From: Phycisphaerae bacterium
Lineage (GTDB): Bacteria > Planctomycetota > Phycisphaerae > UBA1845 > PWPN01
Direction: 5' to 3'
DNA length: 64,000 bases
Assembly (NCBI GenBank): GCA_018003015.1
Contig: JAGNEZ010000035.1
Coordinates: forward strand, 1 to 64,000
In this document: piece by piece, positions 21,696 through 60,974 of the stretch
Numbering within the stretch: position 1 is the first letter of the stretch
Layout: every line of letters begins with the position of its first letter
The notes under the pieces: model-generated
What the model was told of the DNA's origin: nothing
Databases searched by the model: none
Seen by the model: the letters and a program-made list of their open reading frames with translations, nothing else
Translations under genes and position numbers: made by a program

Positions 21696-22316
21696 CTACT
21701 TCCCGAAGTACTGCTGGCACGCGGCCTGGTTTGGGAAGAGCCCCACCCCAACGAGTTCACTGCACCGGCCGTTGGGCCCGGTCAGCGGATTGGCACGCGG
21801 GGCAAGGAGGTTGCTTGCCCGAGCCAGGCCGAGGCCGGTGGCCAGCCCTCGCTGCAGGCCCGGCTGGCCGACCACGGCGGTCAGCGTGCGCGGTTGGGGG
21901 GCCCCAAGGCCGGCTAGGCCGCTGCCCCCCAGGGGTGTACCCGGCGCGGCTGCGGTCACGCTTGATTGCGACAGTTCTTTACCAGCGCTGGTGACATTCG
22001 GGGCAGCGGAACTGAGGGCCAGAGCCGCGAGGAGGCTCAACTGCTGGGCACGAGAGCCCGGCACGGTGTAGGGCACCCGGCCCTTGGGTCGAGTGCTGGC
22101 CGGCTGGGTCGCCGCCAAGTCCGAGGATGCCGGCTGGGTCGCCGCGCCTCGCGGGTCGGATTGGTCCGCAATGAGCCTGGCATGGCCCTGCTCCACGCCA
22201 CGCGACAGGTTGATCGTCGAGCGGTGGAACAGCAGTGCCGCCTCTTGCTGACAGCCGAACGACAGCAGCAGGGGGATGCCGCAGATCAGAACCGCATAAG
22301 GCGATGAAAGTCTCAT
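21696..22316 (-). CDS. Hypothetical lipoprotein with Ala/Gly/Pro-rich body
   Basis: 206 residues. The ATG at 22316 has AGAAGGA eight bases upstream and starts a lipoprotein signal (MRLSSPYAVLICGIPLLL, lipobox SFGC). The middle is low-complexity, including the repeated unit AATQPAS, and contains a helix (QLSLLAALALSS). The end, NGRCSELVGVGLF, is more ordered and has two further cysteines. No family recognised. It lies 34 bases after the outer-membrane barrel gene on the same strand, so the two are probably co-transcribed. Confidence 0.65.
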   Translation of the reverse strand: MRLSSPYAVLICGIPLLLSFGCQQEAALLFHRSTINLSRGVEQGHARLIADQSDPRGAATQPASSDLAATQPASTRPKGRVPYTVPGSRAQQLSLLAALALSSAAPNVTSAGKELSQSSVTAAAPGTPLGGSGLAGLGAPQPRTLTAVVGQPGLQRGLATGLGLARASNLLAPRANPLTGPNGRCSELVGVGLFPNQAACQQYFGK

Positions 22317-22350: not shown

Positions 22351-23700
22351 CTACCACGTCCACTGAAGCTGGGCTCCGTACACCACCTTGTCGTAGGTGT
22401 AGGGCTCGGCCCAGTCGCTCGTGAGCAGGTTCGAGCGGGCGTCCATCCAGTTGATGATGCCATGCAAGGTCAGTTCGCCCCAATCGGGGTGGTCGAGGAT
22501 CTTCTGAGATACTGTGAAGGCATAGGTCGTAATCTGGTCATCACGCCGGCGGCTGTAGCGATCGAGCAGGCTCCAGTGGCGATAGTCGCCGAGCTGCCAG
22601 TTCACGTTGAACCGGAGAACAAGTTCCTTGTCCGGCAGGATGAGATAATCATTGGGTGACAGGGGGTTCAGCAGCGGCAGGTTCGCTCCGAGGTAGAAGT
22701 TGTGATCGGTACGGTCGAACTCGCGACCCTCGGTCGCCACGCCATCCAGGCGGTAGCCAAGCGATAGATCGCCGGTTCGTTGCGTCCGGGGCAAGGGATG
22801 GTACTTCACACTCTGTTCGACGCCGACGGAGTGGACCAGACCGTCGCGATCATACTCCGGCTCGGTGGGGTAAAGGAATTCCTGGCCGTTCAGCTGATAG
22901 AAGACGCCGGTCTCGTTCAGCCAAACGGGGCTGTTTGTCGGCTGCCAGTGATAACGCAGGCCAGGGGTCAGCGCATGGTTGGACAGAAATGACTCGTTGC
23001 CCAGTAGACTGATGTCGTAGTCATACTGGAGACTCAGCTCCCACCGCTCGGCGAGCATGCGGGCGTAACGAATGCTGGTTCCGTAGTCCTGGTAGTTGAA
23101 CTCCTCGACCGAGAAATTCCAGACATGGCCGAGCCGGCCGCCGATCGTCAGCAGTTCGTCGCGCCTGGTCACCGGGGCGTAGTGGACGTCCACCATCTGG
23201 CCGAACTTGCCGTCCGGCCGGCCGGAGGTGATGCCAAGGGTACTGCCCGTGCTGCCCAGAAAGCTGACGTTGGTGTCGTACGCCAGGCCAACCTGGTAGT
23301 CCAGCCGGAGCACCTGCCGCCGAGCCTCCCGGCGATGGCGGCCAATGGCTTCGGTCAATTGGGGATCGGGATTGCCGAACTCCGCGAGGAGGTCCGTTGC
23401 CCGGTCAAAGTTCTCCATGGCCGGATGAATGTTGCCCAGGTTGTGCTCGGCCAGCCCCCGGTAGAACCACAGCCAGGGGTTCTGCGGTTCGAGTCGTTCG
23501 GCCTGGTCCAAGGCGGCCATCGCGGCCCGGGGCCGGCCTTCACGAATCAACTCGACAGCCGCGTCCAGCAGACTCTGAACAGATGGCGCAGTCTCCCACG
23601 AGTTCCGCGCGGTCGGCTCACGAGAAGTACCGGCCAAGTCGCTGCCGGCCGCCGCGCTGCAGAGTGCCAAGCCGAGCAGAACGCGATGAGCTACGTGCAC
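22351..23700 (-). CDS. TPR and outer-membrane beta-barrel protein
   Basis: About 449 residues. An ATG at 23709 touches its AAGGGAGG site with no spacer, so I prefer the GTG at 23700, nine bases away. Residues 1-25 are a signal peptide. Two or three TPR helices follow (LLDAAVELIREGRPRAAMAALDQAERL, FYRGLAEHNLGNIHPAMENFDRA in outline). From about residue 130 the sequence alternates aromatic and polar residues as in transmembrane strands, and it ends in QLQWTW, with a terminal aromatic as outer-membrane proteins need for BAM recognition. The layout resembles surface-protein export modifiers (Slam/DUF560-like). That is an analogy, not a firm family call. Confidence 0.72.
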   Translation of the reverse strand: MHVAHRVLLGLALCSAAAGSDLAGTSREPTARNSWETAPSVQSLLDAAVELIREGRPRAAMAALDQAERLEPQNPWLWFYRGLAEHNLGNIHPAMENFDRATDLLAEFGNPDPQLTEAIGRHRREARRQVLRLDYQVGLAYDTNVSFLGSTGSTLGITSGRPDGKFGQMVDVHYAPVTRRDELLTIGGRLGHVWNFSVEEFNYQDYGTSIRYARMLAERWELSLQYDYDISLLGNESFLSNHALTPGLRYHWQPTNSPVWLNETGVFYQLNGQEFLYPTEPEYDRDGLVHSVGVEQSVKYHPLPRTQRTGDLSLGYRLDGVATEGREFDRTDHNFYLGANLPLLNPLSPNDYLILPDKELVLRFNVNWQLGDYRHWSLLDRYSRRRDDQITTYAFTVSQKILDHPDWGELTLHGIINWMDARSNLLTSDWAEPYTYDKVVYGAQLQWTW

Positions 23701-23902
23701 CGGTGTCATCCTCCCTTGGCGTCAGTCGGGCTCTTCGGGGGGGTATGATACACCATCGTGCCGCCTGTCAAAATGGCAGAACTGCAAGAAATGCTTTTCC
23801 AGGACTCGTTTGCCGGCCCCCAAACGCCCCTTTCTCTGGTACGCGGTTTGATTCCTCCCCTGCCTGGGGCCGCCGAGGCGGCTCCGAAGGTGAGGTCTTG
23901 CC

Positions 23903-49517: not shown

Positions 49518-49545
49518 TTGACACTCTCTCCGCACCCCATACGAT
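49518..49545 (+). promoter_or_regulatory. Sigma-70 promoter candidate for the kinase-metzincin operon
   Basis: A perfect TTGACA, a 16-base spacer and TACGAT (four of six), with the ATG of the kinase 38 bases after the -10. The leader would be about 32 bases long. Confidence 0.45.
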
Positions 49546-49583
49546 GATGCCCGACGATCGACTTGTCCACCGGGACACTGGTG

Positions 49584-52007
49584 ATGAGCTCAGACAACCC
49601 TCAGGATCGGCCGAGCACGGCATCCACCGAGCGGGCGACGGAAATCCAGTCGCCGGAAGGTCTCGGTGCCTCCCTCGACTTGTCGCTGCCCCGCCATGTG
49701 GCCCAACACGCCGCAGCCCCGAAGATCACCGGCTACGTGTTGGCGGAGTTGCTCGGAGAGGGAGCCTACGGCCAGGTCTGGCGGGCCTGGCAGCTTCGCA
49801 CCCGCAAGGAGGTGGCCGTCAAGGTCTTCAAGAAGCGAGGCGGGCTCGACTGGATCTTCCTGCAGCGGGAGATCGAACGGCTCCTCCGCCTGGACCGGCA
49901 TCCTCACGTGGTGACTCTGCTCGACGCCGGCCTGGACAGCGATCCGCCATTCTATGTGATCGACCTGTTGAGCGGCGGTTCCCTGCAGCAGTTCGTGCGC
50001 CCGGACGCACCCGCCGGCCGCACCAAGGTCATCGAGTGGGCTCGGCAGATGTGTGATGCCCTCGGCTACGTGCACCGCAAGGGCCTGATTCACTGTGATC
50101 TGAAGCCAGCCAACGTGCTCGTCGACGAGCAGGACCGGGTGCGCGTCGTCGACTTCGGACAGTCGCGCGTGTTCACCGAATCGGCGGCATCGCTGGGCAC
50201 GCTTTTCTACATGGCCCCGGAGCAGGCCCGGGTCACCAAACTCGGCCAGCCGGTACAGCCGGACGTTCGCTGGGACGTGTATGCCTTGGGAGCGACGCTC
50301 TTCTCCATTCTCACCGGCCGTGTCTCGCACGCCACCGCAGTCAATATCGCGTCTCTTGACAACGCAGCGACCTTGGACGATCGGTTGGAAAGATACCGCG
50401 GCATGATCGCGGCCGCCCCGGTCACCGCAGGCGATCGCGAACTCGCAACCGCTGCCGGGACAGAGCTGGCGGCCGTGGTCGCCAAGTGCATGGCCCCAAA
50501 GCCGGAAGACCGTTACGACGCAATGGCCGAGATTCGCTCCGATCTCGACGCCATGGATCGCGGCAGGCCGGTGAGTCCGCTGGCCCATCATCGGCGATAC
50601 CGCGTCCGGAAATTCGTGCAGCGGAATCCTCTCGGCGTGGCTCTGGCAGTGGCCGTCGTGGCACTGATGACCGGCGGGCTGATGCTCCGGGCCGAGCGGG
50701 AGAAAGGCGACCGCGCCGCCGCCACCGGTATTCTGACCCGTTTCGTCCAGGATCCCGCCCAGGCGGCCAGAGAGATCGCGCAGGCCTCGAAGCGAGTCAA
50801 GGCATTCCTGGCCGATGAGACAGCACGGTATGTGGCTTCACCGGCCTTCACCGAGCGGATCAAGGGGGCACGCGCCGGCCCCTGGTCAAACCCGGTTGCG
50901 TTCTGGGAATCCGTTGACGGCGGACTGCTCTTCAAGCACGGCGAGTGGCTCGAATTGGCGACGATGCAATGGCCGGAGCCGGCGACTCTGTTCGCGCAAC
51001 TCAAAGCCAAGGCAATCTCGGGCAGCAGTCGGCAGAAGTACACCGCATTCTGCCTGATCGGCCAGAAGGGGGGACAAGAAGCCGAGCTGGCGGAGTTGTG
51101 CGTCCAAGCCGTTCGCTCGGAGTCGAACCCCGGCGTGGTTTCGGCCGCTCGATGGGCGGCTGCACGGCTTGGCCGTCCCGAGCCGTGCCGTACCGCTGGG
51201 GATATCTTCGTGGACGATCTCTCCTCGCTGGCCTTCGTTCGAATTCCCGGCTGCGAGTCGTTCCAACGAGGCGTGCCGCCGACCGAGGCGGCCTCTCCGA
51301 ACCAGGCGAAGCAGTCGCATCCGGGGCGCCCGGTCGCCTCATTCTACCTGGCGACGACAGAGGTGACGGCAGGTGCGTTTACCGCCTTCATGAGCGATCC
51401 TGCCGAAGCCGACCGGATGAAGGCCCTCATCGAGGCATCCCCGCAGCTGCGCGAACCGCTGGCCCTGTGTACCCAGGCCCTTCAGGCCCAGATCGATCGC
51501 GCGGGCCTGGAAGAGCCGGCGGGCTGGCTGAGCCTGGATACAGCCCGCAGCTACTGCGCGTGGCTGAACGTCAGAGGCGCGGCGGCCGCTCCGAGGCGAC
51601 GGTATCGACTGCCTGCCGAGGATGAGTGGGAGTATGCCTGCCGGGCCGAGAACCCGGGCTGGTTCTGCTTCGGCGACCGTGAGAACGATGTGCCGCTGTT
51701 CGCCAACTGCTGCGGCTTCCACACCGCGGGATTCTCGCCACCGGTCGGACAGAAGATGCCCAACATGTTCGGGCTGTTCGATATGCATGGCAACCTCTGG
51801 GAATGGACCGACAGCCGCATGCCTCCAGAGGCCATCTCGGATCCGCGAATTGCCCCCGAGCAGGCATCTCGTCTTTACATCTTGCGCGGCGGGGCCTACT
51901 ATTCACCTTCGCTGGTGTGCAGTTCTGCCCAGCGAAACTACAGCGACGCGTCGCAGCCATCCATGTACTGGGGCTTCAGGATCGTGATGGAGATGGTCGG
52001 CAAGTGA
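49584..52007 (+). CDS. Ser/Thr protein kinase fused to a SUMF1/FGE-type domain
   Basis: 807 residues. The kinase domain spans about 45-335: ELLGEGAYGQVW (P-loop), EVAVKVFKK (Lys), HCDLKPANV (catalytic loop, HRD replaced by HCD), VVDFGQSR (DFG) and YMAPEQ. One membrane helix (about 354-370, GVALAVAVVALMTGGLML) places the rest outside. Residues about 540-805 form a formylglycine-generating-enzyme/C-type-lectin-like fold, with YRLPAEDEWEYACRA, MFGLFDMHGNLWEWT and LRGGAYYSPSL. In such fusions the outer domain probably binds a signal instead of making formylglycine. The next three genes start within or just after preceding stops. Confidence 0.9.
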   Translation: MSSDNPQDRPSTASTERATEIQSPEGLGASLDLSLPRHVAQHAAAPKITGYVLAELLGEGAYGQVWRAWQLRTRKEVAVKVFKKRGGLDWIFLQREIERLLRLDRHPHVVTLLDAGLDSDPPFYVIDLLSGGSLQQFVRPDAPAGRTKVIEWARQMCDALGYVHRKGLIHCDLKPANVLVDEQDRVRVVDFGQSRVFTESAASLGTLFYMAPEQARVTKLGQPVQPDVRWDVYALGATLFSILTGRVSHATAVNIASLDNAATLDDRLERYRGMIAAAPVTAGDRELATAAGTELAAVVAKCMAPKPEDRYDAMAEIRSDLDAMDRGRPVSPLAHHRRYRVRKFVQRNPLGVALAVAVVALMTGGLMLRAEREKGDRAAATGILTRFVQDPAQAAREIAQASKRVKAFLADETARYVASPAFTERIKGARAGPWSNPVAFWESVDGGLLFKHGEWLELATMQWPEPATLFAQLKAKAISGSSRQKYTAFCLIGQKGGQEAELAELCVQAVRSESNPGVVSAARWAAARLGRPEPCRTAGDIFVDDLSSLAFVRIPGCESFQRGVPPTEAASPNQAKQSHPGRPVASFYLATTEVTAGAFTAFMSDPAEADRMKALIEASPQLREPLALCTQALQAQIDRAGLEEPAGWLSLDTARSYCAWLNVRGAAAAPRRRYRLPAEDEWEYACRAENPGWFCFGDRENDVPLFANCCGFHTAGFSPPVGQKMPNMFGLFDMHGNLWEWTDSRMPPEAISDPRIAPEQASRLYILRGGAYYSPSLVCSSAQRNYSDASQPSMYWGFRIVMEMVGK

Positions 52008-52903
52008 AACGCTATGGGGCAACCATTCCGGCCGGCTGCATGGCCCTCGCGGCGGCATCGTGCGCGTCGATCGACTTAAGTACGCTGGGACTGGGCCACC
52101 CGGCCACCCTGCCCGTCGAGACGCGCTTCGCATTCACGAACCTGTCAAGCAAGGCCTACGCCGCCCTGGCAATTCGAGCCCATGGCGACACGGACTACGA
52201 GACCCTGCCGCTCTTGCCTCCCGGAGGAACCTATCGCGGAGACTTCGGCTCGGTGCTGGGCCACGCCTGCCCCGGCTCACTCGACGTTCGCCTTCTGCTC
52301 TATCGCCGCGTCAACGCCTCGATCCCCATCGGCCTGGATGCCGGGGAGACGGTCGCATCGGAGCCTCTCGCTGGCGGCGAGATCCTCGACGTTCCAGCCT
52401 GCGATGTGGAACCGGTGGAGGTCTACACCATTGTGAACTGGGACGCGCCGGAGGGGACGGCCCGCCTCAAGTTCGCCCAGGATACGCCGGTAGATGCGTG
52501 GATTCGCCAATCAGGTCGTTTTCCCAATGCCGATGCCGCGTGGCAGACCGTCGGGCTGGACCCCGGCCTGGCCGGCCTCCAACCTCCCGAACCGGCCTTG
52601 GACGCGGCCATCGCCGGCCGGGTCGTCGATCGCGACGGCGCTGGAATCGAAAACATCGGCGTCCTGCTACGCACGCGATGGAGGGCCCGGCTCGATGACG
52701 CCGACGCCGGCAACGATCCCGACAGCGGTTACAGCGATCCGATCGCGGTGACCCGGACCGATGCCTCCGGCCGCTTTAGCCTGGATCGTCCGCCGGGCGC
52801 CTACCGGGTCGAGGTCTTTCAGGACGGATACCTGTTCCGGCCGGACGTGATCGACGTTGAAACGCCGCTGGATGGCATCGTGTTTGTGGCGGAACCCCAG
52901 TGA
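52004..52903 (+). CDS. Lipoprotein with carboxypeptidase-regulatory-like C-terminus
   Basis: 299 residues. The GTG at 52004 overlaps the kinase TGA (GTGA). The N-terminus KRYGATIPAGCMALAAASC holds a signal and lipobox AASC. The middle (about 35-190) is beta-rich without known family. Residues about 205-299 look like a transthyretin-like or carboxypeptidase regulatory domain: IAGRVVDRDGAGIENIGVLL, TDASGRFSLDRPPGAYRVEVF. It is anchored to the membrane facing the periplasm, possibly a ligand or substrate for the kinase's outer domain. The following gene overlaps its stop in the same manner. Confidence 0.75.
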   Translation: MKRYGATIPAGCMALAAASCASIDLSTLGLGHPATLPVETRFAFTNLSSKAYAALAIRAHGDTDYETLPLLPPGGTYRGDFGSVLGHACPGSLDVRLLLYRRVNASIPIGLDAGETVASEPLAGGEILDVPACDVEPVEVYTIVNWDAPEGTARLKFAQDTPVDAWIRQSGRFPNADAAWQTVGLDPGLAGLQPPEPALDAAIAGRVVDRDGAGIENIGVLLRTRWRARLDDADAGNDPDSGYSDPIAVTRTDASGRFSLDRPPGAYRVEVFQDGYLFRPDVIDVETPLDGIVFVAEPQ

Positions 52904-54069
52904 GAGTGTGGCGGATACACAATCCGTGTCACCGACCGACGCCCCGGCGCGGCGTGACTCCCATCGGCGGCCCGGCCCTCTTCGGTCTCGCGACAGCCCT
53001 GCCCGTTCTCCTTGCCAGTTGTCCCTTCCTGACGCCCGCGTTCAACCCTTTCCAGGATCTGCCGGCGGTGGCCGTCGATGGGCAACCTCACCTGCTCGAG
53101 TACGACGTCGCCCCCTTGGGCTGGCTTGACGCCGACCAGGTCCTTCGGCTTCAGGTGACCGGCGAATCGATCGCTGCCGTCCTGATTCTGGCGGCCGATC
53201 CGCAGCGACCGGATATCGGACTGCTGGCCGGCGGGGGACCGCCCGGAGCGTTCTTCAACTACCGCGTCCAGGAGGCAGGCCACTACTTCGTGTACGTGCT
53301 GTTCGACCCTTCGTCAGACAGCACCCGTCGGCAGGCGATACTCACCGCCGAGAATGGCGATTCAGGACATCGGCCGCCCGCCAGACAGACGGTCCGCGTC
53401 GTGTTCGACGAGGGCTACCTCACTCGGCCTGGCCTGGTCGACCCCAACTCGTTCACCGCCGACGAACGGCAGTTCCTGTCGGATATCAGCCCCCTGGTTC
53501 GAGAGGGTGTGCTTCAAAGGCTGCGGACAGTCTTCCGGGACACCCCCATTGATGTCCTCGCTGATACCGACCCCTTGCCGGCCTCTCCGTATTCCCAGCT
53601 CGAGTTCTCACCCGAGCGGAAACTCGCCCCGCCGGGCGAGACCTTCGACGCCGCCGTGCCGCCGCCGACCTCGGAACAGGCTTCCTGCCAGATCGCAGTC
53701 ATCTTCGGCGAGATCCTGCCCAGCGGTTCCTACATCGATCCTGGTAATCAGAGGTACGACGACCGTGCCGTCGTCTACGTGGGCAGCTTCCAGGGACGGG
53801 GGGCCGACTGTCGCTCGGCCGCAATCAACTCGGTCAACAACATCGTCCTGGGCCTGTCTCACACCGCGGCCCACGAGATCGGTCATCTGGTCGGCCTCTA
53901 TCATGTGCCTCTGACCGATATCATGAACCGCTCGCCGACGCTGGCCTTCCAGCGAGAGCTTGCCTTTGAGAGTGGCCAGCTTCTCGTCGAGGGGGGTGGG
54001 CAATCGCAGGTGCTGACCACCATCGTTCAGAATCCGAATGTCTACTTCCGCTTGGCGTTTCAGCAGTAG
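52900..54069 (+). CDS. Metzincin-type metalloprotease lipoprotein
   Basis: 389 residues. GTG 52900 overlaps the preceding TGA. Positions about 23-41 form a hydrophobic signal ending VLLASC, so it is probably lipidated. HTAAHEIGHLVGLYH near residue 325 is a zinc-binding metzincin motif, and DIMNRSPT after it provides the Met-turn. A beta domain precedes the protease (about 45-150). It is the second metzincin of the window; the first, at 4860, carries FG-GAP repeats and this one does not. As it is coupled to a kinase-sensor gene, processing of surface proteins under kinase control is plausible. Confidence 0.82.
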   Translation: MRVWRIHNPCHRPTPRRGVTPIGGPALFGLATALPVLLASCPFLTPAFNPFQDLPAVAVDGQPHLLEYDVAPLGWLDADQVLRLQVTGESIAAVLILAADPQRPDIGLLAGGGPPGAFFNYRVQEAGHYFVYVLFDPSSDSTRRQAILTAENGDSGHRPPARQTVRVVFDEGYLTRPGLVDPNSFTADERQFLSDISPLVREGVLQRLRTVFRDTPIDVLADTDPLPASPYSQLEFSPERKLAPPGETFDAAVPPPTSEQASCQIAVIFGEILPSGSYIDPGNQRYDDRAVVYVGSFQGRGADCRSAAINSVNNIVLGLSHTAAHEIGHLVGLYHVPLTDIMNRSPTLAFQRELAFESGQLLVEGGGQSQVLTTIVQNPNVYFRLAFQQ

Positions 54070-54089
54070 CCAGGAGGTTCGATCGGAAC

Positions 54090-55364
54090 ATGGCTGTGTC
54101 CTCCCCCTCCACGACACCGTGGCCTCAAGTGCTCTCCATGCGTCAACGGACCGAGGCGTTCAACGGCTGTCTGCGGGAACGGCTCGACTCGCTCGTGCCT
54201 GTGGCCATGCGCGAGGCCGGCATCGACATGTGGCTCATCCTCTGCCAGGAGGATAACCCCGACCCCCTCCTGGCAACCATGATGCCGATGGACACGTGGT
54301 GGCCGATTCTCCAGATCCTGATCTTCCACGATCGCGGGCCAGACGCCGGCGTCGAACGAATCAACCTCTCCATGGTCGACACCAAGGACCTCTACCTCCG
54401 CCCGTGGACCGGACGGGGCGAGACGGAACAGTGGCAGCTGTTGAAGACAATCGTGTCCGAGCGAGCCCCCCGGTGGATCGGCGTCAATATCGGGCGAGTC
54501 CAGTGGGCGGCCGGCGGCCTGACCCACAATCTATATGGCCAGTTGGCCCATGCCTTGCCTGATGGATACGCGGGAAGGTTGACGTCCGCCGAGGTTGCCT
54601 GCACGCGGTGGCTGGCCACCCTGACGCCGCAGGAAATGCCCTTGTTCCGGCATGTCGTGCAGGTCGGGCGACAGATCATCGCCCGCTGTTACTGCCGCGA
54701 GGCGATCACGCCCGGCGTGACCATGCCCGAGGATCTTCGGTGGTACTACTGGCAGTGCTGCGCCGATCTGGGCCTGCAGACTTCATTCCTGCCGTATTTC
54801 ACGCTGCGGCAATCACCCGACAACGTCAAGGCTTTCGGTGCCGATGGGGTGATTCGTCAAGGCGACTGTGTCGTCTGCGACGTGGGTATTCGCTACCTGG
54901 GGATGTGCAGCGATCATCAGCAGTGGGCTTATGTTCTACGGGAAGGTGAACGGGCCGCTCCGGACGGCTTGCGCCGCCTGATGGCGGAATGCAATCGGCT
55001 TCAGGATGTCTTCATGAGCGAATTCCGCCCCGGACTGAGCGGCAATGAACTGCTGAAACGCATCCTGGATCGGGCGCGTGCCGAGGGCGTGCCCAACCCC
55101 AGGGTCTACTCGCATTCGCTGGGACATCTGCTCCACGAACCGGGTCCGCTGATCGGGCTTCCGTGGGAACAGGAGCGGTGCCCCGGGCGGGGGGATGTGA
55201 AACTGGAATACGACACCTGCTTCACCATGGAGCTGTCCATCGAGGCTCCGCTGCCCGACTGGAAGATCGAGGCCTTCCGCTTCAATATGGAAGAGGACGT
55301 CGCCTTCACCCGGGAGGGCTGCAGGGTCGTCGACGCTCGCCAGACCGAGTTCTACCTCGTCTGA
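54090..55364 (+). CDS. M24-family (Xaa-Pro type) metallopeptidase
   Basis: 424 residues. An N-terminal domain (about 1-180) is followed by a pita-bread fold. Metal ligands are visible in order: CDVGIRYLGMCSDHQQ (two aspartates), YSHSLGH (histidine), TMELSIEAP (glutamate) and RFNMEEDVAFT (glutamate). Five ligands are thus intact, so it should be an active two-metal peptidase or a related enzyme of the creatinase group. There is no signal peptide. It starts 21 bases after the metzincin gene and probably belongs to the same transcript. Confidence 0.87.
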   Translation: MAVSSPSTTPWPQVLSMRQRTEAFNGCLRERLDSLVPVAMREAGIDMWLILCQEDNPDPLLATMMPMDTWWPILQILIFHDRGPDAGVERINLSMVDTKDLYLRPWTGRGETEQWQLLKTIVSERAPRWIGVNIGRVQWAAGGLTHNLYGQLAHALPDGYAGRLTSAEVACTRWLATLTPQEMPLFRHVVQVGRQIIARCYCREAITPGVTMPEDLRWYYWQCCADLGLQTSFLPYFTLRQSPDNVKAFGADGVIRQGDCVVCDVGIRYLGMCSDHQQWAYVLREGERAAPDGLRRLMAECNRLQDVFMSEFRPGLSGNELLKRILDRARAEGVPNPRVYSHSLGHLLHEPGPLIGLPWEQERCPGRGDVKLEYDTCFTMELSIEAPLPDWKIEAFRFNMEEDVAFTREGCRVVDARQTEFYLV

Positions 55365-56827: not shown

Positions 56828-60685
<3,858 letters not shown>

Positions 60686-60974
60686 CGACGATATACTCGC
60701 TCGGTTGGCCAGACGACATCCTCGTCGCCAGCACGAGACTCCGGGCCGGTACGATCGCGCTACGCTGCCTCGGTGTCCCTGCATGAAGGCAGCGTATCAG
60801 GCATCGGTTTGTTTGAGCGTGTGCGTGAGAAACCGTCGCAGAAGAGTCTGCCCGGTACCGATAAGATCGCCGCTGCGAGATCATGGTCGTCGTCGCGGGC
60901 ATCAGATGTCCGCCGCGATGAGACCGGCCGCCGCAGGTCCTGGACCGGATATATGGTCCCGGGGGGGCGGCCTG
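60686..60974. other. Spacer between the hybrid kinase and sugar-transporter genes
   Basis: 289 bases with no supported gene. It should contain the promoter of the kinase gene. No terminator for the transporter is evident. Confidence 0.4.

Follow-up and report, generated by a model that had tools for sequence, protein, structure and literature searches.

A conserved kinase-lipoprotein-metzincin gene trio of Phycisphaerae and its partner genes

Planctomycetes possess many receptor-like Ser/Thr kinases, and the inputs and outputs of most of them are unknown. Kinase-activated extracytoplasmic function (ECF) sigma factors have been described in Vibrio (EcfP-PknT) and Xanthomonas (EcfK-PknS), and according to the accessible sections of the two accounts the planctomycete groups ECF59, ECF61, ECF62 and ECF217 belong to the same class (PMC8999054, PMC13147305). 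According to the available part of another account, kinases that cross the membrane once and bear a sulfatase-modifying (FGE) domain in the periplasm are common in the phylum Planctomycetota (PMC11032199). In Slam or type XI secretion (DUF560), as far as the accessible text of its description goes, a protein with tetratricopeptide repeats (TPR) and a beta-barrel works with a lipoprotein (PMC8406197). Here we describe a locus on a stretch of 64,000 nucleotides, called the window throughout (contig JAGNEZ010000035.1 of the Phycisphaerae bacterium assembly GCA_018003015.1), in which a transmembrane Ser/Thr kinase with an outer FGE-like domain (KIN), a lipoprotein (LIPO) and a metzincin lipoprotein (METZ) are encoded by three overlapping genes. 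Judging from gene content and sequence, this trio probably, though far from certainly, lies at the heart of a conserved module for envelope signalling whose output can be exchanged between a cyclic nucleotide and transcription.

Conservation of the trio

A preliminary description of the window had listed four genes on the forward strand in the order kinase, lipoprotein, metzincin lipoprotein and M24 peptidase, and all four are present in this order. The GTGA overlaps it had reported are also found, with the GTG start of LIPO at 52004 lying within the stop codon of KIN and the GTG start of METZ at 52900 within that of LIPO. The M24 gene begins 20 bases past METZ, not 21 as previously given. Because the kinase of a relative (locus L061) begins there in the alignment, KIN probably starts at ATG 49584 and not at TTG 49563.

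We searched 114 genomes of the window's order (Phycisphaerae) for METZ. At 1e-5, 37 genomes were matched, some of them merely by short zinc-site matches, and the 32 genomes with a full-length or nearly full METZ, or with a clear piece of it at a contig edge (49 residues at 53% in G077; G072), were taken as carriers. In 27 genomes, 29 loci show KIN, LIPO and METZ arranged in this order on the same strand; some of them have only a contig-edge piece of the kinase. A kinase of this family is found upstream of LIPO in 30 of the 31 loci with room upstream, and the remaining carriers are broken by contig ends, with the exception of G047. By eye, a matrixin-like protein is seen upstream of the LIPO-METZ pair of G047 (locus L087), on the opposite strand. 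Overlaps of start and stop codons by four or one bases occur at 24 of 30 KIN-LIPO joints, among which the joint of L068 was mis-measured as the kinase match ran into the preceding gene, and at 27 of 32 LIPO-METZ joints. Since both overlaps recur in most relatives, they are more than chance. The identity of METZ among the relatives drops to 33-36%, and the order of the trio is retained at 35-60% identity.

The M24 peptidase gene is present in only 4 of the 114 genomes at an E-value of 1e-20, including the window genome and a sister species, and it adjoins the trio only in these two. We therefore rejected it as a member of the module, and the role in peptide turnover which the preliminary description had proposed drops out with it. 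That the M24 gene is kept with the trio in so few genomes further indicates that synteny as such is not far-reaching.

Full-length METZ is found only in two families (f1 and f7) of one order, and a profile search of 397 genomes of the class detected none outside that order. When 392 genomes of the phylum were searched with LIPO (at 1e-8) and with the partner protein BAR described below (at 1e-60), only the window's own genome was matched; as close relatives would have matched, the other carriers are apparently all absent from this sample. A METZ scan of a contig collection yielded 35 loci, of which 32 are clear and three (L130-L132) are matches that are both short and weak. The records of the clear loci are titled Phycisphaerae, Phycisphaerales or Planctomycetota, except for L109 (JANQQE010000014.1), which is titled Alphaproteobacteria bacterium IP29b_bin.190. 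This contig bears the trio of the present Phycisphaerae group and its title is probably wrong.

The two kinase types and their inner partners

In KIN, a Pkinase domain (Pfam: PF00069; residues 58-321, 1.7e-40) and an FGE-sulfatase domain (residues 559-808, 1.5e-28) are separated by a single strongly hydrophobic stretch at about residues 351-378, in agreement with the transmembrane kinase with an outer FGE/lectin-like domain of the preliminary description. The catalytic residues K87, D179 and D197-F198-G199 do not vary across 19 aligned rows. Human FGE needs two copper-binding cysteines, arranged as C-x4-C. In KIN the first of these is replaced by Ser781, and the second, C786, is invariant in the 19 rows. 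We thus rejected an active FGE as the outer domain; with the first cysteine missing, its sequence makes a binding domain more likely than an enzyme. The window genome has 17 FGE-sulfatase matches in total, several of which lie in very long open frames of up to 2,079 residues.

The kinases found with LIPO and METZ fall into two strongly supported groups of the kinase tree, which we call types A and B. Type A, to which KIN belongs, has an HCDLKP catalytic loop with HCD replacing HRD, and in its otherwise variable N-terminal tail a T-x-x-Q motif is present in all 14 kinases whose N-terminus is available. Type B has the HRD loop and an N-terminal H-x3-C-x2-C motif (10 of 10 kinases). The zf-HC2 model scores above its cut-off in three of the four type B kinases scanned, and by its motif this region is an anti-sigma-like zinc finger. 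Three genomes (G041, G087 and G088) carry one kinase of each type. In total, 18 genomes were counted as type A, with cut or masked kinases, such as that of G066, typed by the remaining fragment or by the METZ and LIPO trees.

Type A kinases occur together with a protein that combines an FHA domain with a class III cyclase. At an E-value of 1e-40 this cyclase is found in 17 of the 18 type A genomes and in one of the 96 others. The association holds within each family, with 5/5 type A genomes against 0/8 others in f1 and 12/13 against 0/38 in f7, and it also divides the carriers themselves, since none of the 14 carriers outside type A has the cyclase (not all of these 14 have a visible kinase). 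Among the cyclases scanned, PF00211 was above the cut-off in three of three and FHA above its Pfam cut-off in two of three. In L066, L068, L070, L073, L081, L090 and L163 the cyclase gene is immediately followed by that of the type A kinase; in L083, L085 and L086 the two are on the same strand, with the cyclase 4-6 kb upstream. The cyclase of the window genome (C25:27797-29539) is 52% identical to one of the scanned relatives over residues 21-612.

Nine regions with a cyclase away from the trio were compared. A type A kinase adjoins the cyclase in G086 and G082, and in G106 BAR and the small lipoprotein SLP, described below, lie alongside. The remaining regions have by eye no common neighbour, except those of the window genome and its sister. 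In the G082 region (L176, contig C67), a second cyclase precedes a type A-like kinase and neither LIPO nor METZ is found within the 15-kb stretch; this may represent the inner pair in minimal form. In the window genome, a large secreted protein that, judged by eye from a motif, resembles N-acetylmuramoyl-L-alanine amidases directly follows the cyclase (L170:9614-12700, contig C25). By eye, this neighbour is also seen in the sister species and not in G038 or G041.

Type B kinases have a different neighbour. An ECF sigma factor gene lies upstream of the kinase in 9 of 10 type B loci with room for it, and these factors keep DAQDA or DAEDA in all ten aligned rows, which represent nine distinct loci. 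A profile built from the type B loci detected no ECF gene in the window. Grouping the type A sequences together was only marginally rejected for the METZ tree (AU p 0.038) and not rejected for the LIPO tree (p 0.24), so that an exchange of the kinase beneath a constant outer pair is only suggestive.

METZ, LIPO and the outer partners

METZ has the zinc site HEIGHLVGLYH and a Met-turn (DIMNR). Its residues H325, E326, H329, H335 and M342 show no variation across 24 aligned rows and are at least 90% conserved in a larger alignment of 33 rows that includes cut-off proteins. The protein falls below every Pfam and NCBIfam cut-off, the best Pfam value being 0.0047. Its AlphaFold model has a pLDDT of 82.9, and in the catalytic domain (residues 160-389), which is preceded by a beta-rich N-terminal domain, the best structural match is the archaemetzincin 3lmc (Z 11.7, rmsd 2.9 Å over 140 residues), followed by adamalysins and ADAMs at Z of about 8-10. 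Foldseek alone gave a weaker result, with three matches at 0.001, one of which is the matrix metalloproteinase MMP-11, and the METZ profile picks up karilysin at 8e-4. By its zinc site, Met-turn and modelled fold METZ is a metzincin, as the preliminary description had it, and its sequence makes a surface protease likely. A signal peptide and a lipobox cysteine are seen by eye in both METZ and LIPO. The LIPO model has a pLDDT of 86.3, and residues 199-299 resemble transthyretin, CnaB and carboxypeptidase-regulatory domains, with Z of 11-12 in the best rows.

The module extends beyond the genes of the preliminary description, which missed the internal output as well as two outer partners encoded elsewhere in the window. 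These are SLP, a small lipoprotein, and BAR, a protein with TPR repeats and a predicted outer-membrane beta-barrel. SLP is found at 1e-5 in 27 of the 32 trio genomes and in one of the 82 others; close homologues of BAR are found in 29 of 32 and in one of 82. Close here means a match of about 1e-129 or better (the weakest is 5.6e-129), and the next match, at 2.5e-63, opens a series of mostly longer frames. TPR matches are present in seven of eight BAR members, and the best matches of BAR among solved structures are TPR proteins. A search with eight BAR proteins at E <= 1 matched 26 families, and DUF560 (Slam) is not one of the 25 listed.

SLP starts 34 bases after BAR in the window, the pair being about 26 kb from the trio, and follows BAR on the same strand in L067, L194, L197, L198 and L199 as well. 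In 14 loci SLP is convergent to METZ. Furthermore, SLP copies track the trios: G041 and G087, with two trios each, have two SLP copies, the third two-trio genome, G088, has two and a broken fragment, and every other matched genome has a single copy. Close BAR occurs once per genome throughout. In the SLP tree, the SLP of the f1 locus L063, whose kinase is firmly type B, groups with the SLPs of f1 type A loci, as does its METZ, so that SLP follows METZ and not the kinase. The support of this placement is 94/93, just under the star threshold of the tool.

Upstream of the operon, the perfect TTGACA reported in the preliminary description is real and is followed by TACGAT after a spacer of 16. Two promoter-like sites were found in the region where 0.9 are expected in shuffles, and the evidence for a promoter is therefore weak. 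Downstream of the operon, a hybrid sensor histidine kinase of 1,318 residues is seen by eye at 56828-60784 on the opposite strand. The features of the window are collected in Table 1.

Table 1. Coordinates of the operon and of its partner genes in the window
Feature	Position	Strand	Basis
Promoter-like site ahead of the operon, TTGACA-16-TACGAT	49518..49545	+	consensus match only, 10/12 positions
KIN, type A transmembrane Ser/Thr kinase with outer FGE-like domain	49563..52007	+	domain matches
LIPO, lipoprotein with transthyretin/CnaB-like C-terminal domain (199-299)	52004..52903	+	sequence and model
METZ, metzincin lipoprotein, beta-rich N-terminal domain and catalytic domain 160-389	52900..54069	+	motif and model
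M24-type peptidase gene, a neighbour and not a conserved part of the module	54090..55364	+	Peptidase_M24 1.4e-14
SLP, small lipoprotein (MRLSSPYAVLICGIPLLLSFGC...) with Pro/Ser/Thr-rich linker	21696..22316	-	conserved C-terminal region, two Cys
BAR, TPR domain ahead of a predicted outer-membrane beta-barrel, protein ending in ...QLQWTW	22351..23709	-	barrel predicted from sequence

Readings of the module and comparison with known systems

The preliminary description had proposed an outside-in signalling unit linked to a surface protease. The outcome that would have overturned it, a gene order kept in no relative, does not apply to its KIN-LIPO-METZ part, which is conserved. The M24 gene does not belong to it, and we favour an envelope signalling module with the following steps. 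LIPO, METZ and SLP would be anchored in the outer membrane, and BAR may help one or more of them to reach the surface. By means of its outer FGE-like domain, KIN would sense the state of the lipoproteins or a product of METZ, and the kinase would be switched on or off. In type A, the kinase would phosphorylate the conserved threonine in the T-x-x-Q motif of its own N-terminal tail, and the phosphorylated tail would dock the FHA domain of the cyclase and thereby control a cyclic nucleotide. In type B, the kinase may control the ECF sigma factor through phosphorylation or via the zinc finger. On this reading the outer pair would be constant and the inner output exchangeable. The composition, order, overlap coupling and co-occurrence of the module are seen in the genomes compared. 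Surface location, activation, docking and the release of a ligand are steps that we infer.

Several observations weigh against this reading. FHA docking and the outer-membrane location are read from motifs only. G047 has a divergent LIPO-METZ pair with BAR nearby and no kinase. The cyclase is unlinked to the trio in several genomes, including that of the window, G066, whose kinase is partly masked, is counted as type A by its METZ and LIPO trees and has no cyclase match, a type B kinase in G037 (L064) has no adjoining ECF gene, and no T-x-x-Q was found in the L176 paralogue, where only the stretch around the kinase domain was searched. Regarding the outer partners, SLP has no match in the carriers G038, G043, G044, G047 and G072, and close BAR is missing from G043, G066 and G072; most of these genomes are incomplete, G038 and G044, with 99% completeness, being exceptions. 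Some SLP matches are weak, down to 6.7e-9 in carriers and 1.5e-6 in G106, and within f1 the link of SLP to the trio is weak as well (4/7 carriers against 0/6 others, p 0.07). The BAR cut-off of 1e-129 was chosen after the gap had been noticed, and at 1e-15 as many as 59 of the 114 genomes match. In addition, genes adjoining trios supplied most of the sequences for the SLP and BAR profiles, which may therefore overlook divergent copies at other places, and the Fisher tests of co-occurrence ignore kinship. Finally, G106 is the sole outsider for cyclase, SLP and BAR alike, all on one contig, and no trio was found in it; as this genome is 75% complete, its trio may be lost from the assembly.

A special case of the envelope module is a circuit of sheddase, ligand and receptor, in which METZ would cleave SLP, or LIPO, and the freed piece would be the ligand of the FGE-like domain of KIN, or its removal would lift an inhibition. 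SLP would suit the part of a tethered ligand, with its lipobox, a disordered-looking linker and a small conserved C-terminus that contains cysteines (by eye), and its copy number, its convergent position to METZ and its tree, which tracks METZ and not the kinase, are in line with such a circuit. On the other hand, a cleavage site was not identified, the window has its SLP 27 kb from the trio, SLP is unmatched in 5 of the 32 trio genomes and the placement of the L063 SLP falls short of the star. We regard this circuit as unlikely. A bolder form is equally tentative: METZ would release or trim an SLP delivered by BAR, the FGE-like domain of KIN would read SLP, and replacement of the kinase would have joined this outer machinery either to a phosphothreonine-recruited cyclase or to an anti-sigma/ECF switch.

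Alternatively, the metzincin could be the effector, with the kinase controlling the lipoproteins of the operon or the activity of the protease, and the unit digesting surface or foreign protein. Many metzincins are degradative and a promoter-like site heads the operon, both of which would fit, but the control of an effector needs less than a kinase paired with either a cyclase or an ECF factor, and we consider this reading improbable. Simple inheritance within a clade, by which related carriers would share gene order and co-occurrence with no functional link, draws on the confinement of full-length METZ to two families and on counts made without correction for the species tree, but is very improbable given that the order of the trio survives at 35-60% identity while the M24 gene adjoins it only in the sister, that carriers are patchy in both families (7/13 and 25/51) and that the cyclase is present in 17/18 type A carriers against 0/14 others.

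Under the envelope module reading, one class of kinase has fixed outer partners, including a likely protease, and two alternative inner outputs, so that every stage from input through transmission to output is open to experiments on single genes. Among known systems, the planctomycete kinases of PMC11032199 have the same architecture as KIN, and the accessible part of that account names no operon partners, outputs or protease. As far as their descriptions are available, the kinase-ECF systems share with the present module a transmembrane Ser/Thr kinase, an extracytoplasmic domain and a cognate ECF factor, a layout which the type B relatives also have, whereas the type A kinase of the window has no adjoining ECF gene and pairs with the FHA-cyclase. 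ECF43 members are said to lack DAED in the accessible text of PMC8999054, while the type B factors found here keep DAQD or DAED, and the available kinase-ECF descriptions mention no lipoprotein-metzincin pair. With its predicted barrel, BAR would resemble Slam in the combination of TPR and barrel. DUF560 is not among the families listed for it, though barrels diverge fast; known Slam cargo carries an eight-stranded barrel. METZ has HExxHxxGxxH, the Met-turn and the fold in common with archaemetzincins, adamalysins/ADAMs and matrixins, and is unlike them in being a kinase-coupled lipoprotein that has an additional beta domain at its N-terminus and falls below the Pfam and NCBIfam cut-offs.

No unit of kinase, lipoprotein and metzincin appears among the titles and abstract openings listed from the open literature, which leaves most subscription papers outside reach. 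In the accessible literature, then, kinase-ECF pairs, FGE domains on planctomycete kinases and TPR-barrel exporters of lipoproteins are known, and the open part of it suggests that joining them to a coupled metzincin and to alternative outputs is new. In animals, ADAM17-type proteases shed ligands that act with receptor kinases. Like that system, the module would unite a surface metzincin, a tethered small protein and a receptor kinase, although the likeness is an analogy between parts without shown orthology, cleavage or ligand. If the protease does make the ligand, the module would be, by this analogy, a bacterial counterpart of the logic of animal growth-factor signalling.

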